A stretch of DNA of 64,000 nt. Origin: Pagrus major (taxonomy: Eukaryota > Chordata > Actinopteri > Spariformes > Sparidae). The number at the start of each line of letters is the position of its first letter. Within the stretch, counting starts at the first letter, position 1. The position numbers and the translations under genes are program-made. Of the stretch, positions 41,601 through 60,400 are shown piece after piece. Location of the stretch: contig NC_133221.1 of the NCBI RefSeq assembly GCF_040436345.1, positions 18,287,165 through 18,351,164 of the forward strand, read 5' to 3'. The notes beneath the pieces are model-generated. The model was given only the letters and a program-made list of their open reading frames with translations. It searched no databases and had not been told where the DNA came from.

Positions 41601-44600
41601 CAATGTTTCTTCTCTGTTTCCTGTCATAAATATCTGCTTTTCTCTGCAACACAATGCTGCCTGAGGCGTCCTTTCTATTAAAAATGTAATACAGGTAGTA
41701 CCACTCTTCCCTCTGTCTTGACACATACCCTTTGCTGTAATGTTTCCACTGGCGTGCTTCAACTCTTCCAACACCGTCAGTATGCATCGTTGGCTCGGGT
41801 CCACTTTTCTGCCTGCACCACTGCCAGTCTTTGTATAGGCCTTTCAATCTGCAGTGTCTGTGCTCAAGATTTTGTTTCCTTTCTCTCCCCCTGAAACTGT
41901 TTTCAGACTACGGCTGAGCTAAAATATCTACCACAAGGCTGCCTCCCTTTTTGTCAGCTTACATTTCAGATACCTCATCCTCTCTTCTCTGTGCAAACTT
42001 TTTCTTTTGTCTCATCTCGTGTGTGAAATACAAAGTAAATAGTGTGAAATTTAATATCACTGAATGGTTTTAAGTAAGTTTCACACGGAGAATGAAGACT
42101 AACAGGTCAGATTACAAGTTCTCCCTTGTCCAGCATCTGGTCTTCCTTTACCGTCTGCCTGGTAGACATTGATCAGTTGAAGCTAATCATGCTGCTCGTC
42201 GGAACACCAGGGCCCGAGCTCTTGATGAAAATATCTTCAGAGTCTGTGAGTTCACAACGTTACCCAAGGTTTTTTCTCTAACAAGTTCTCTGCTACAGAC
42301 GTGTCACTCTGCTGTGCAATAACCTAACTGACAGCATGTTTTCCACCCTTCAGCTTTGTGGTATTGAGACTTGCTTTTCTTCCTCTTTTACTGGGTGAAT
42401 TCGGTCTGCCACGATGTGATTAAGACTCAGGTGATTGAGCTCTGACTTTCACTGATTGACTGTAAAGCAAAGTGTTGTGTTGTGTCTTTCCTTTTAATCT
42501 ACCAATCCCTCCTTTTTGCTTCAAAGCTTGAAGTTTGCTTTTCAACATAACATTGTAGTGCACCTTGAGTGGAGCTGCACAATGTTAGATTGAGAAGCAG
42601 CTTCTTAACCAACTCTGCTCTGTCGCTATACTCCCCTTGACACAAGCTTCATAGACATAAACCAGCTTCAGCAGATAATGCGTCTCACAGGAACGCCCCC
42701 AGCATCTCTAATAAGCAGGATGCCCAGCCACGAGGTGAGCAGGACCTACAACAGCTTTCTTTAGACTGGGGCAGGAGGACAGTCAAACCTGCTTTCACTC
42801 TCCTTGTTATTTTTTGCTTCTAAAGCATCGCCGCTCTTGGCTTAGTATTACTCCAAAATTGTAGACAGTTTTTCATACTAACATATCCATAAATTATACA
42901 AAAATAGCAGTAATATTTAAGTGACATAGTAATGAAGGTGTTAATGGTCACCATAATGAGAATCACTTGGTTGACTCAAACTACTTTGGTCAAGTTGGTT
43001 GTAAAGAGCAGCACGGCAATCTACAGGCCACTAACAGCGATTTTAAGATTTACAGTTAAATCACAGTTCTTGTGTGTGTCTGACACGCTTGCTGCATGTG
43101 ATTGTCACAGTGATTACAAAGGCATTTCTGTGCTTGTATGAATATGTCTCCTCAGAGTTAGCTAGGCTAAACTGCATTACAGTAGTTACTAACAGCATTT
43201 TCTGTGGTTTTCTTTGTTTGTTGCACATTTCTTGAAACTTGCTTCTCTCAACATATTATTTGTGTATTTTAATTTTATTTTTCATTCCAAATGAAAGAAT
43301 AATTGTCAGTCTGCACCTTGAAGTTTTCTTTTACTCCAATAGATTTATTATCAGGAACTGTCTGTTTGTCAGAGTCCTCACTCAGACAGGAGACGAGGAC
43401 AGCAGGGCATTTTCTTCTTACAGGATCTTTTGGGCTTGTCATTTTCAGTTTATACATTTCAAGAATTTTTTTTAATGTGATTTTTGTTATTAAAATATAT
43501 TGAAATGAAAATTGGATATTAAAAAACTTACTTACAGTGTTAACACTTTAATTGTTTAAACAAGACTTCTTAAAAACACCACAATGTTTTTATCCTGCAC
43601 TCCCCGATATGGATCACCAGTGCTGTCAATCATATGTTTGCTGCAAGCTATAAAAGGCTATCAACAGCTGCTATGCATTTTTTTGACATCTCACTTCAGG
43701 AAAACGAAAACCCAGTTGTAACAGACAACCAGACCCAAAAGGGTGCCTGAAATGTCAGGTGTCTTGTTAGAAAATTTCTCTTCTTCACTTTAATTTCTAT
43801 CATGGGTGGTCGGTAAAAAGAAGTACTCCTCGTCATAGGAGGACCTAGTTTAGTGTGTAAACTGCATGTATCAGTGTTGTCATACATGAGGAACCTTTGT
43901 GTGCGTAAGGACAAAACATAGCTGTAAATTAGTAGGAGAAGTTGCAGAAGGCTTGAGCTTCAACACCAGCATATGTTATCTTTGGAGTATTGGTATACAT
44001 TCAGGATTATGTGATCCATACAGTCATATCCGCATTTAGAAATGTAATAAGTGAGCAGTAATGATAGACGCAGCTGTCTGTATTGAACAGAATCAGTGGC
44101 ATGAAAATGCTCCTGAAATGAGCATTATGAAACAGGCGGTACTGAATGTGGGCGACATGTTGCTGCTAGTGGGAGCTGACATTTGATTTACTGTATTTTT
44201 TTCCCAGGCCAGGAACTACATCAGCTCCTTGCCACACATGCCCAAGAGGAACTTTACTGACGTGTTCATTGGTGCCAACCCACTAGGTAAAAGAAAAACA
44301 GGTTTTTAAAGCATCAGCTATGCTGTGTTATGGTGGATTCCCTTAGAAATTCCCCTTAATAGTGTGGTTTTTCTTTGTAATATTGGCCATCTGTACATGA
44401 CAGGACACCTGGATTTTGAATGGATCATAAACCATTTGAGATTTACATTGGCATGTTTTTTTTAAGCTGTGGACCTCCTGGAGAAAATGTTGGTTCTGGA
44501 CACAGACAAACGGATAACAGCAGCCGAGGCTCTGGCTCACTCCTACTTCTCTCAGTACCACGACCCAGACGACGAGCCTGAGGCAGAGCCGTATGACCAG

Positions 44601-57400: not shown

Positions 57401-60400
57401 GCATGGCAAGTTGTGACCTTCACTCCCAATTTATTGTGCCGTTTACACAATAAGTTGGAGTGCACTTTGCTTAATTTTTCACAGTTAAGTGAGGTACTCC
57501 ATTACAGTGATTTTTTAAATGCTCTCAGATTAAGAGGATATGGAAATGTGAATCATGTGATGATGAGTACCAACATTCCTGTGTTTATTTCCTCTCTAAC
57601 ACCTCAAAACCACATTTTTTTTCCGCACTGGAGACGGGGCCATCTCTCATTTCCTCACTCATCACTCTTCTCTTGATCTCTTCCTCACTCCCACTCCTTG
57701 TTTCCTTGTTCGCCTCCATATGCTTTCTGTATGTTCATGTTGGCTTGCTGCTTAGCTTTCTGCACTGACTTGATTCTGTTGCAGCATGTCAGGTATGTGC
57801 TTGGACTCAACCTTCAGTTAATTGCCACATGCCCCGCAGCTTTTTCACTTACAGTACATGAACTTATGAGCCTATTGCTTAATATTCTTCCACACCTTTC
57901 TCTGTTATGTGACTGTCCTTCCATTTAATTTGACTAATCACTCATCACAATCTGCTGTACAAGTTTAAATGCAAGTGGCCTTGTTGGCTGTACTTAAAGC
58001 CTTATTTTTAGTCTTCAGGGTTTGTTTTCCTATTTCAAAGTGAATGGCCTCTATGTGTTAAAATGTTTTAATGTTGATGTGAAGAAATAATATAGACTGC
58101 TGATACATGTGCTTCTTCTCATACGAGGCTGTCATCATCATCATCATCCTCCATTGTTCGACATGACTGTTTGCCATCTCTCTCCCATCTCCTCCTCGCT
58201 CCAAACTGTTACCCACTGACTCTCTGTCCTCCCTCTCCTCCTCTGATGTGCCTCATTTCCAGACCATCTTGCTCTCATGATTGAGTTGCTCGGTAAAATC
58301 CCTCGTCACTATGCTCTGAGTGGGAAATACTCACAGGAATACTTCACCAAGAGAGGTACGCCACCCCTCTGTCTGTGGCTCGCTCTGGGAGCAGTGGACG
58401 GCAGGTGAAGGGGGAAGGATCCTGACAGCACATTCAGGTCTACTGGGCAAAATTATGAATACAGACCAATAAATGAATTTTTGTTTGAACAGAGCCATCA
58501 GGTATTGATTCAGGTGTCAGTGGTTCTGCCAAAAATTGTCTGGCAGCAGTACATTCAGGACCTCCTCAGATGTAGCCAGAGGACTTGGCTAGACTTTTGA
58601 TACTTGATTGAACCCTGCAATGGCCCTACAGGGATCAATTTAATTCTCATAACTTTTTAAAAGTCAAGTAAAGTAAGGTCAGTCACAGCGATGTTCCGTT
58701 TTTATAATTCTTTAACTGAATTTAATAGAATTAAAAGATCACAGAAAAAGACACTAGAGAAATGTTTATTCCTCTGCGCTGGCGATTATGTTTTCAGGTT
58801 GTCCGTCCCTCCAACCTGCGGTAGGAACGCAATATCTCAGAAACACATTGAGGCAATGACTTAAAATTTGGTACAGATGTCCACTTGGGCTCAAGGATAA
58901 ATTGAATAGACTTTGGTGGTCAAAGGTCAGGGTCACACTTACCTCACAAAACACATTTTTGTCCATTACTCAACAATTCAAAGACATTTGACCCAAATAT
59001 CTAATAGGATACAATGATTAAGTGATGACATTTTATATTCAAAAGGTCAAACGTCATAACTCAACAACAACTTTAACGGTGTGCAGAGGCATACAAACAC
59101 GAGGAGGTAATTGTTATGATACATATACGTATACAGTACATATAAATGTTATAATTAGGGAAGAGCTGCAGCAAAACCACCCTGCTGCCATTAACTATGG
59201 ACAGAGTCCCGAGAACGTAACCTTTGTAATGGATTAGTGTAGTGATTTCTTTTTATATTGTTTATTTGTTGATATAGTCAAGTGTAAAGTGTCAAGAAAA
59301 CATCCTCCATGATCATATTTGACATGTATGAATAATATATATGAAATCGTATATGAAAATAAATAAGATCAAATAACTAATTAAAACCAAACATATCAGA
59401 AAAGTGAACGCTTACACATACATTAGTGTAATAAGAACTGCCTTAAATGACAGGAAAGCCCTGGAAAAAATGTATTCTACCTGTATTTTGAGTTTTTAGT
59501 TTTGCCCATATATCCAAGTACCATCTGTTCAGAGGAATCAGGTGGGATGTATGATCTTTACTGCATCCAGCCACCAGGGGGCGATTGTGATGTTTTTGGC
59601 TTCACTTTTGGGGCGCCGTCATGTAATCCATCTTTATATACAGCCAATGGTTCACACGAATGAGAAAGAAGCTGACTTTTTTAGGTTTATAAACATGATT
59701 TAAAAAAATATGTAAAAAGTTTAAGGGCCTTTATAATGTCTGGTGGCCATGTTTGATCCAACTTAAGGTCTGTGCCCCAAAACACAACAACGATCGGACC
59801 CAAGTGGGTGTGCTGTCAGTCTGACCTCTCTCTTCCTCAGCTCTCCACACCCAGAGTGGGCCTGTGACTGGGACAATGTCTGATAAATCTGTTGTTTGTT
59901 TTGTCTGTCTTCCCCTCTCCTCTTGCCACCGTCTGCCACATAGACCATATAGCGCTGATCATTGAGCTGCTGGGGAGTGTCCCACGCAAACTCATAATGA
60001 GCGGCAAATATTCCAAGGATTTTTTCACCAAGAAAGGTAAAAGTGTCAGTGTTATGATGAGAGAAGGTTTTCTGTCTGTTAAGATCAGCCCAAGAGCCTT
60101 CACTATTTTCTTATATCTGTTAAAAATGTAAAAATCTTCTTTTTTCTCCACATAAACTTGTATAATTTATTACAATATACCAACATAAGATATTACTATT
60201 ATTTTTTTTAAAATGTCATTTGGAAATAATATATGAATAAAATATGAACAGGTAGTGCTCATATCTAGATGTTTGAATATGTTCTATAGACTGAACTTCC
60301 TTGTTGTAGGGAATTCACACAATGAAGTTGTAGTTCTTTGACACAGCGTTGTCTGTCTGGCCGTCTGCAGGTGATTTGAAACACATCACCAAGCTGAAGC

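Follow-up and report, generated by a model that had tools for sequence, protein, structure and literature searches.

Helix αG exon pairs in the neighbouring mapk14 and srpk1 genes of Pagrus major: probable independent tandem duplications, with an SRPK pair that probably predates the SRPK1/SRPK2 split

Mutually exclusive exons of Mapk14 affect the activity and substrate specificity of the kinase, as stated in a passage of PMC1431701, and a cluster of mutually exclusive exons in SRPK1, absent in Glires, is named in a passage of Hatje et al. 2017 (PMC5740500). Tandem exon pairs that are older than a gene duplication and were sorted among the resulting paralogues are described for the CACNA1 and FYN families in a part of PMC9741552. 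The present analysis concerns a stretch of 64,000 nucleotides (nt) of the Pagrus major genome (assembly GCF_040436345.1, contig NC_133221.1; C7:18287165-18351164), hereafter called the window, in which mapk14 and srpk1 are neighbours on the plus strand and each gene holds two versions of the exon encoding helix αG of the kinase fold. Searches of the same genome for related genes covered 786 Mb in 25 contigs. It is fairly likely that both pairs are ancient tandem duplications of the αG exon which arose independently and from which splicing normally selects a single copy, the SRPK pair having formed before SRPK1 and SRPK2 separated.

The two exon pairs and the choice between their members

Exons 9a and 9b of mapk14 and exons 15a and 15b of srpk1, which the initial annotation had put forward as paired alternative exons, were recovered in the window at the positions proposed, with AG and GT borders on all four. 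In mapk14, in srpk1 and in a third gene, the SRPK2-like L011, the paired exons are adjacent and homologous, have equal length and phase and keep intact splice sites, as tandem duplicates do. A tblastn search of the window with 15a returned 15a itself (expect value, E, 6.8e-19) and 15b (2.4e-12), and the best match outside the srpk1 exons had an E of 0.51. Searched alone against the PDB, 15a matched SRPK2 best (1.2e-10) and 15b matched SRPK1 best (8.4e-14); the match to yeast Sky1 scored 29.4 bits with 15b versus 23.9 bits with 15a. Differences at codon positions 1, 2 and 3 number 8, 5 and 18 between 15a and 15b (P 0.0005) and 12, 9 and 21 between 9a and 9b (P 0.0009), while synonymous sites are saturated in both pairs and the ratio of nonsynonymous to synonymous differences per site (pN/pS) is about 0.3 for srpk1 and about 0.5 for mapk14. 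The third-position excess together with the synonymous saturation points to protein-level constraint on both copies over a long time. A recent local copy as the origin of 15a was rejected because the flanking introns share only short matches (the best between different introns with E 0.12), and the saturated synonymous sites likewise rule it out. A search of viral contigs for relatives of the b-type exon gave 29 pattern matches, none of which was confirmed as a relative. The exons and the signals around them are as follows.

41367..41438, plus strand: mapk14 exon 8 (αF; ends in ...FPGTD plus the C of a split His codon), read from the sequence, with TVDIWSVGC... in a tblastn match
41439..41448, plus strand: U12-type 5' splice site GTATCCTTTT of mapk14 intron 8, score 15.7
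42143..42151, plus strand: U12-type branch-point match TTCCTTTAC upstream of mapk14 9a, score 11.0
42166..42245, plus strand: mapk14 exon 9a, 80 nt, phase 1 to 0, starting in the split (H) codon
42633..42641, plus strand: U12-type branch-point match CCCCTTGAC upstream of mapk14 9b, score 10.6
42655..42734, plus strand: mapk14 exon 9b, 80 nt, phase 1 to 0, best PDB match 3oht
44208..44286, plus strand: mapk14 exon 10 (ARNYISSLP...), from sequence reading and tblastn
57076..57145, plus strand: srpk1 exon 14 (αF side, with the equivalent of D548), U2-type donor gtattg at 57146
58263..58355, plus strand: srpk1 exon 15a, a-type (SRPK2-like loop), 93 nt, phase 1 to 1, (D)...(G)
59944..60036, plus strand: srpk1 exon 15b, b-type (SRPK1-like), 93 nt, phase 1 to 1, (D)...(G)
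60371..60555, plus strand: srpk1 last coding exon (with the equivalent of K615), from sequence reading

Splice signals were scored with position weight matrices built on the U12-type consensus for donors and branch points, and all AGs in the window served as the background. The donor of mapk14 intron 8 is of the U12 type, the branch score before 9a is reached by 0.02% of window AGs and that before 9b by 0.17%, and the donors of 9a and 9b are of the U2 type. With a single U12-type donor and U12 branch signals at both acceptors, the U2 donor of 9a would not be joined to 9b, and inclusion of two or zero 80-nt exons would shift the frame; incompatibility between U2 and U12 sites, together with the frame, can explain the exclusivity of 9a and 9b. 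No such incompatibility was found at srpk1, where U12 signals are absent from the pair (donors 14, 15a and 15b score -5.2, -7.3 and -13.3; the branch scores before 15a and 15b are 1.6 and 0.3), and the donor before the αG exon appears by eye to be of the U2 type in all six SRPK genes of the genome. Since these signals are U2-type and both exons keep the frame, the choice in srpk1 would have to rest on regulated exon selection. Long complementary arms clearly favouring competing RNA structures were not found around 15a and 15b, where only five weak pairs occur, and a comparison of srpk1 with the SRPK2-like gene for conserved intronic elements gave only two matches, of 15 and 16 nt.

It could be argued that the srpk1 exons are not strictly exclusive but serve as cassettes, both being included, with 31 extra in-frame residues, or both skipped. 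Exons of 93 nt running from phase 1 to phase 1 impose no frame penalty on either event, the introns between them (1588 nt in the window and 319 nt in L011) present no obvious steric bar, and the window pair lacks U12 signals. However, two copies of helix αG would presumably disrupt the kinase fold, and equal length with one-for-one homology fits substitution, so that cassette use is considered unlikely and the normal inclusion of one copy is preferred.

Elsewhere in srpk1, far from the 15a/15b pair, the intron after exon 6 is U12-type (donor GTATCCTTTA at 53586, branch match TATCTTAAC, acceptor 54064), and a lupus preprint likewise names SRPK1 as a gene with a U12 intron. Intron 14 of srpk1 contains, at window positions 57785-57792, a microexon-like 8-nt piece (ttgcag CATGTCAG gtatgt), which would be frame-shifting and may be due to chance.

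Age and possible use of the SRPK pair

Six SRPK genes with eight αG exons were found in the genome, two of the genes with a pair, and all eight exons have 93 nt and the same borders. The second gene with a pair lies on C8 (L011, L014) and is SRPK2-like, its last exon scoring 116 bits against PDB SRPK2 versus 97 against SRPK1. L011 carries an a-type exon, an intron of 319 nt and then a b-type exon, with phases as in srpk1 and intact sites; the a-then-b order is thus common to L011 and the window srpk1. The second srpk1 gene (L009) has a b-type exon only, and L010, L012 and L013 have an a-type exon only, while the constructs used for the structures of human SRPK1 and SRPK2 carry opposite exon types. 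A tree of the exons (31 codons, one genome plus two human sequences) splits by type with a support of 88 on protein and 86 on DNA, and in a tree of the rest of the kinase the two srpk1 genes separate from the remaining genes with a support of 77. Grouping of the exons by gene was rejected by the approximately unbiased (AU) test on DNA (p 0.0145) and protein (8e-7) and by the Shimodaira-Hasegawa (SH) test on protein (0.007), and an exon arrangement like the gene tree was likewise rejected by the AU test (p 0.007 on DNA and 0.0004 on protein). Over the 28 pairwise comparisons of the SRPK αG exons, pN/pS ranges from 0.12 to 0.46. From these sequences, the SRPK pair probably predates the SRPK1/SRPK2 split, and some paralogues would have kept both exons and others one. 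In the SRPK genes with one αG exon, introns 14 and 15 were searched for a relic of a second copy and none was found; the four hits at E<=1 all lie in introns of L011.

Several points weigh against this dating and against the proposed use of the exons. The SH test on DNA leaves the by-gene grouping standing (p 0.059), and joining only the window exons 15a and 15b also stands on DNA (AU 0.225) and is barely rejected on protein (0.047), so that the case for age rests mainly on the b-exon of L011. The 31 codons and the single genome with two human sequences are a small basis for the exon trees, and the rest-of-kinase alignment was put together manually from tblastn fragments and is gapped in two of its six rows. 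The use of srpk1 15a and of the L011 b-exon is suggested by conservation alone, and the link from the swapped loop to substrate choice is only putative. Some of the comparison acceptors scored for splice class were misplaced by at least one base and lack an AG end; the sites relied on are those named here and the all-AG background.

In a different history, the exon would have been duplicated once in SRPK1 and once in SRPK2, or one of these genes would have taken over the b-exon of the other by gene conversion, and the grouping by type would be convergence. The exons are short, one constrained topology is unrejected on DNA, and the SH test on DNA is likewise compatible with grouping by gene. 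On the other hand, the two pairs have the same a-then-b order and the same borders, by-gene trees are rejected by the AU test on both DNA and protein, and the b-exons share with each other only 13 to 16 of 31 third positions, so that any conversion would be ancient. Separate origins of the two SRPK pairs, or gene conversion, are therefore regarded as rather improbable, and a single duplication before the split is preferred.

The initial annotation described the swapped segment as docking-binding, in keeping with published work in which the SRPK docking groove lies at helix αG and the MAPK insert. The key groove residues listed in a passage of PMC10878513 are D548, D564, E571 and K615 in SRPK1 and D581, D597, E604 and K648 in SRPK2. 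Mapped by our own count and by spacing, the equivalents of D564 and E571 lie in exon 15 and are kept in all eight αG exons, and by the same count the equivalents of D548 and K615 lie in exons 14 and 16 of the window srpk1, so that exon 15 holds two of the four groove residues. The a and b types differ mainly in the loop after the helix, which reads IPRH[FY]ALSGKYS versus VPRK[LV]..[AS]GKYS. Because D564 and E571 are kept in both versions and the differences lie mainly in the loop, the swap would adjust how Arg/Ser-rich substrates dock without preventing their docking. If srpk1 15a and the SRPK2-like b-exon were instead unused leftovers, this would fit the four of six SRPK genes that manage with one exon, and both exons are known here from genomic sequence alone; an open frame of 93 nt between intact splice sites, together with a low pN/pS despite saturated synonymous sites, argues otherwise, as does the naming of SRPK1 among the exclusive-exon clusters in a passage on the RNA-Seq-checked set of Hatje et al. 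2017. This reading is held to be quite improbable, and maintained use of both exons remains the preferred one.

The p38 genes follow a partly parallel pattern. Both mapk14 genes, in the window and at L015, keep 9a and 9b, and their 9b exons are identical in amino acids (pN 0, pS 0.5). A 9a-like exon is present in the mapk11-like L016, and the remaining single-exon p38 genes, L017-L020, fall on the 9b side of the tree (support 89 on protein and 91 on DNA); forcing the mapk14 exons together was rejected (AU p 0.025 on DNA and 0.011 on protein). The names mapk11, 12 and 13 for the p38 loci are given by likeness. Sorting by type thus seems similar to that of the SRPKs but weaker, since support is low at several nodes within the 9b side. 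Two of the p38-like loci, L020 (C7:25.465 Mb) and L021 (C7:25.558 Mb), lie 93 kb apart and have identical exon translations, and they represent either a recent duplication or an assembly duplicate. The second mapk14 (L015) and the second srpk1 (L009) are adjacent at C6:24.02-24.06 Mb, so that the neighbourhood itself was duplicated.

Introns near helix αG in p38, JNK and other CMGC kinases

The proposal that both genes duplicated one and the same part of the fold, helix αG with the beginning of the CMGC insert, appears to be supported by alignment. A match between SRPK 15b and DYRK2 with equal spans (32 and 32 residues) was used as a bridge: it sets DQLACMIELLG of DYRK2 on the matching residues of SRPK 15b, and DQLKLILRLVG of p38 repeats the spacing of this CMGC motif, so that D(QL) of p38 would correspond to D(HI) of SRPK. 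In p38 the intron interrupts the second codon ahead of the first D, and in SRPK it interrupts the codon of that D. Both upstream introns are in phase 1, as had been claimed, but the alignment of the helix separates them by two codons and not by one at most. The downstream border follows about 26 codons later in p38, in phase 0, and about 31 codons later in SRPK, in phase 1.

A GTATCCT donor was found at the same codon in all eight p38 loci read, among which L020 and L021 look near-identical, and this U12 donor recurs, with codon and phase unchanged from p38, in seven of seven intact JNK exon copies, a count that excludes a decayed copy in L025. The alternative exons of JNK genes for the segment just before helix αG, which had been cited as known, are present in this genome. 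The duplicated JNK exon lies upstream of the U12 intron and the duplicated p38 exon downstream of the same intron; because the duplicates lie on either side of one U12 intron, there is a real predisposition shared by p38 and JNK, and SRPK is outside it. In the three JNK genes with two intact αF exons (L022-L024), the last letter is T in the first exon and C in the second, and the split codon therefore encodes Tyr or His according to the exon used. The mapk9-like JNK gene L025 has one intact αF exon and an upstream partial copy (about 3980-4042 in reverse-complemented coordinates) in which 13 residues are kept, the remainder is lost and there is no U12 donor; it is apparently a decaying alternative exon.

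A comparison of αG introns among CMGC kinases, as the initial annotation had advised, showed that positions or classes differ between p38/JNK, SRPK, CLK, DYRK1 and ERK in this genome. The CLK intron lies five codons upstream in phase 0 (two of four CLK loci read), the DYRK1 intron just before codon -1 in phase 0 (2/2) and the ERK intron at codon +7 (2/2). Six further loci were printed, of which L027, L030, L033 and L034 run through, L032, which we take to be a HIPK-like gene, breaks after codon +1, and L031 breaks upstream; L029 stood outside this reading. The accompanying search for a second helix αG exon revealed none in other p38 loci (matches kept at E<=0.02), and among the matches listed there was one αG match per gene for CLK (150 of 188 candidates scored) and for DYRK1 (150 of 199 candidates scored).

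Introns crowd near helix αG but not at one place, and that those of p38 and SRPK lie close together is therefore weak evidence of descent. An αG intron with the same position, phase and splice class across the subfamilies was not found, and an exon swap shared by CMGC kinases was rejected on the differing intron positions and classes. Of the swapping tendency suggested for CMGC kinases, the predisposition shared by p38 and JNK is supported, but its inheritance in common with SRPK is not, as intron position and splice class differ. Although their genes are neighbours in both copies of the block, the p38 and SRPK pairs look independent. A common CMGC αG intron or alternative-exon arrangement of which p38, JNK and SRPK are the survivors is highly improbable: the shared fold part, the two close phase 1 introns and the single U12 position of p38 and JNK would suit it, but the SRPK intron is two codons off with a U2-type donor in 6/6 genes, the introns of CLK, DYRK1 and ERK have other positions or phases, four other loci have no intron there, the downstream borders of p38 and SRPK differ, and no second αG exon was seen elsewhere among the p38, CLK and DYRK1 matches listed.

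Comparison with known exon switches

A tentative scenario, somewhat short of an even chance in our judgement, is that the SRPK pair was an ancestral vertebrate docking switch, both versions being first spliced from one gene, after which the b-type was favoured in SRPK1 and the a-type in SRPK2 and SRPK3-like genes, with fish srpk1 and the SRPK2-like gene keeping both. If the scenario is true, splice choice would give SRPK1 the segment of the SRPK2 type, and the reverse, and splicing would determine the substrate docking of the very kinases by which it is controlled, with a possible feedback loop. Part of the difference between the docking regions of SRPK1 and SRPK2 may then descend from one ancestral alternative splice, and isoforms of one SRPK paralogue may accordingly behave like the other paralogue. 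The analysis also tells a real shared constraint, p38 and JNK at one U12 intron, apart from a coincidence, p38 and SRPK.

Exons 9a and 9b of the window are the known MAPK14 pair CSBP1/CSBP2, from which nothing essential differs. The 9a version is found in human p38 chains and the 9b version in 3oht, a salmon protein according to a table in Abascal 2015. What is seen here beyond CSBP1/CSBP2 is that the second mapk14 keeps both exons and that the single-exon p38 paralogues are 9a-like or 9b-like. In JNK (MAPK8/9/10), the U12 donor at the codon and phase of p38 means that the same incompatibility could enforce exclusivity, although the duplicated exon, unlike that of p38, lies upstream of the U12 intron and encodes αF and the following loop; these alternative exons are presumably those named 6a/6b.

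The SRPK1 cluster of Hatje et al. 2017 concerns the same gene and probably the same exons, the passage concerned giving neither exon nor mechanism, and the main text of that paper (PMC5740500) makes no mention of SRPK2. A non-exhaustive literature search found no description of an SRPK2 exon pair, and the terms SRPK and MAPK have 0 occurrences in the main text of PMC9741552. Unless it is described in supplements or in literature beyond that read, the paralogue-sorted SRPK pair is an addition to the kind represented by CACNA1 and FYN, in which, as in the SRPKs, the exon pair is older than the gene duplication and the paralogues keep one or both of its members.

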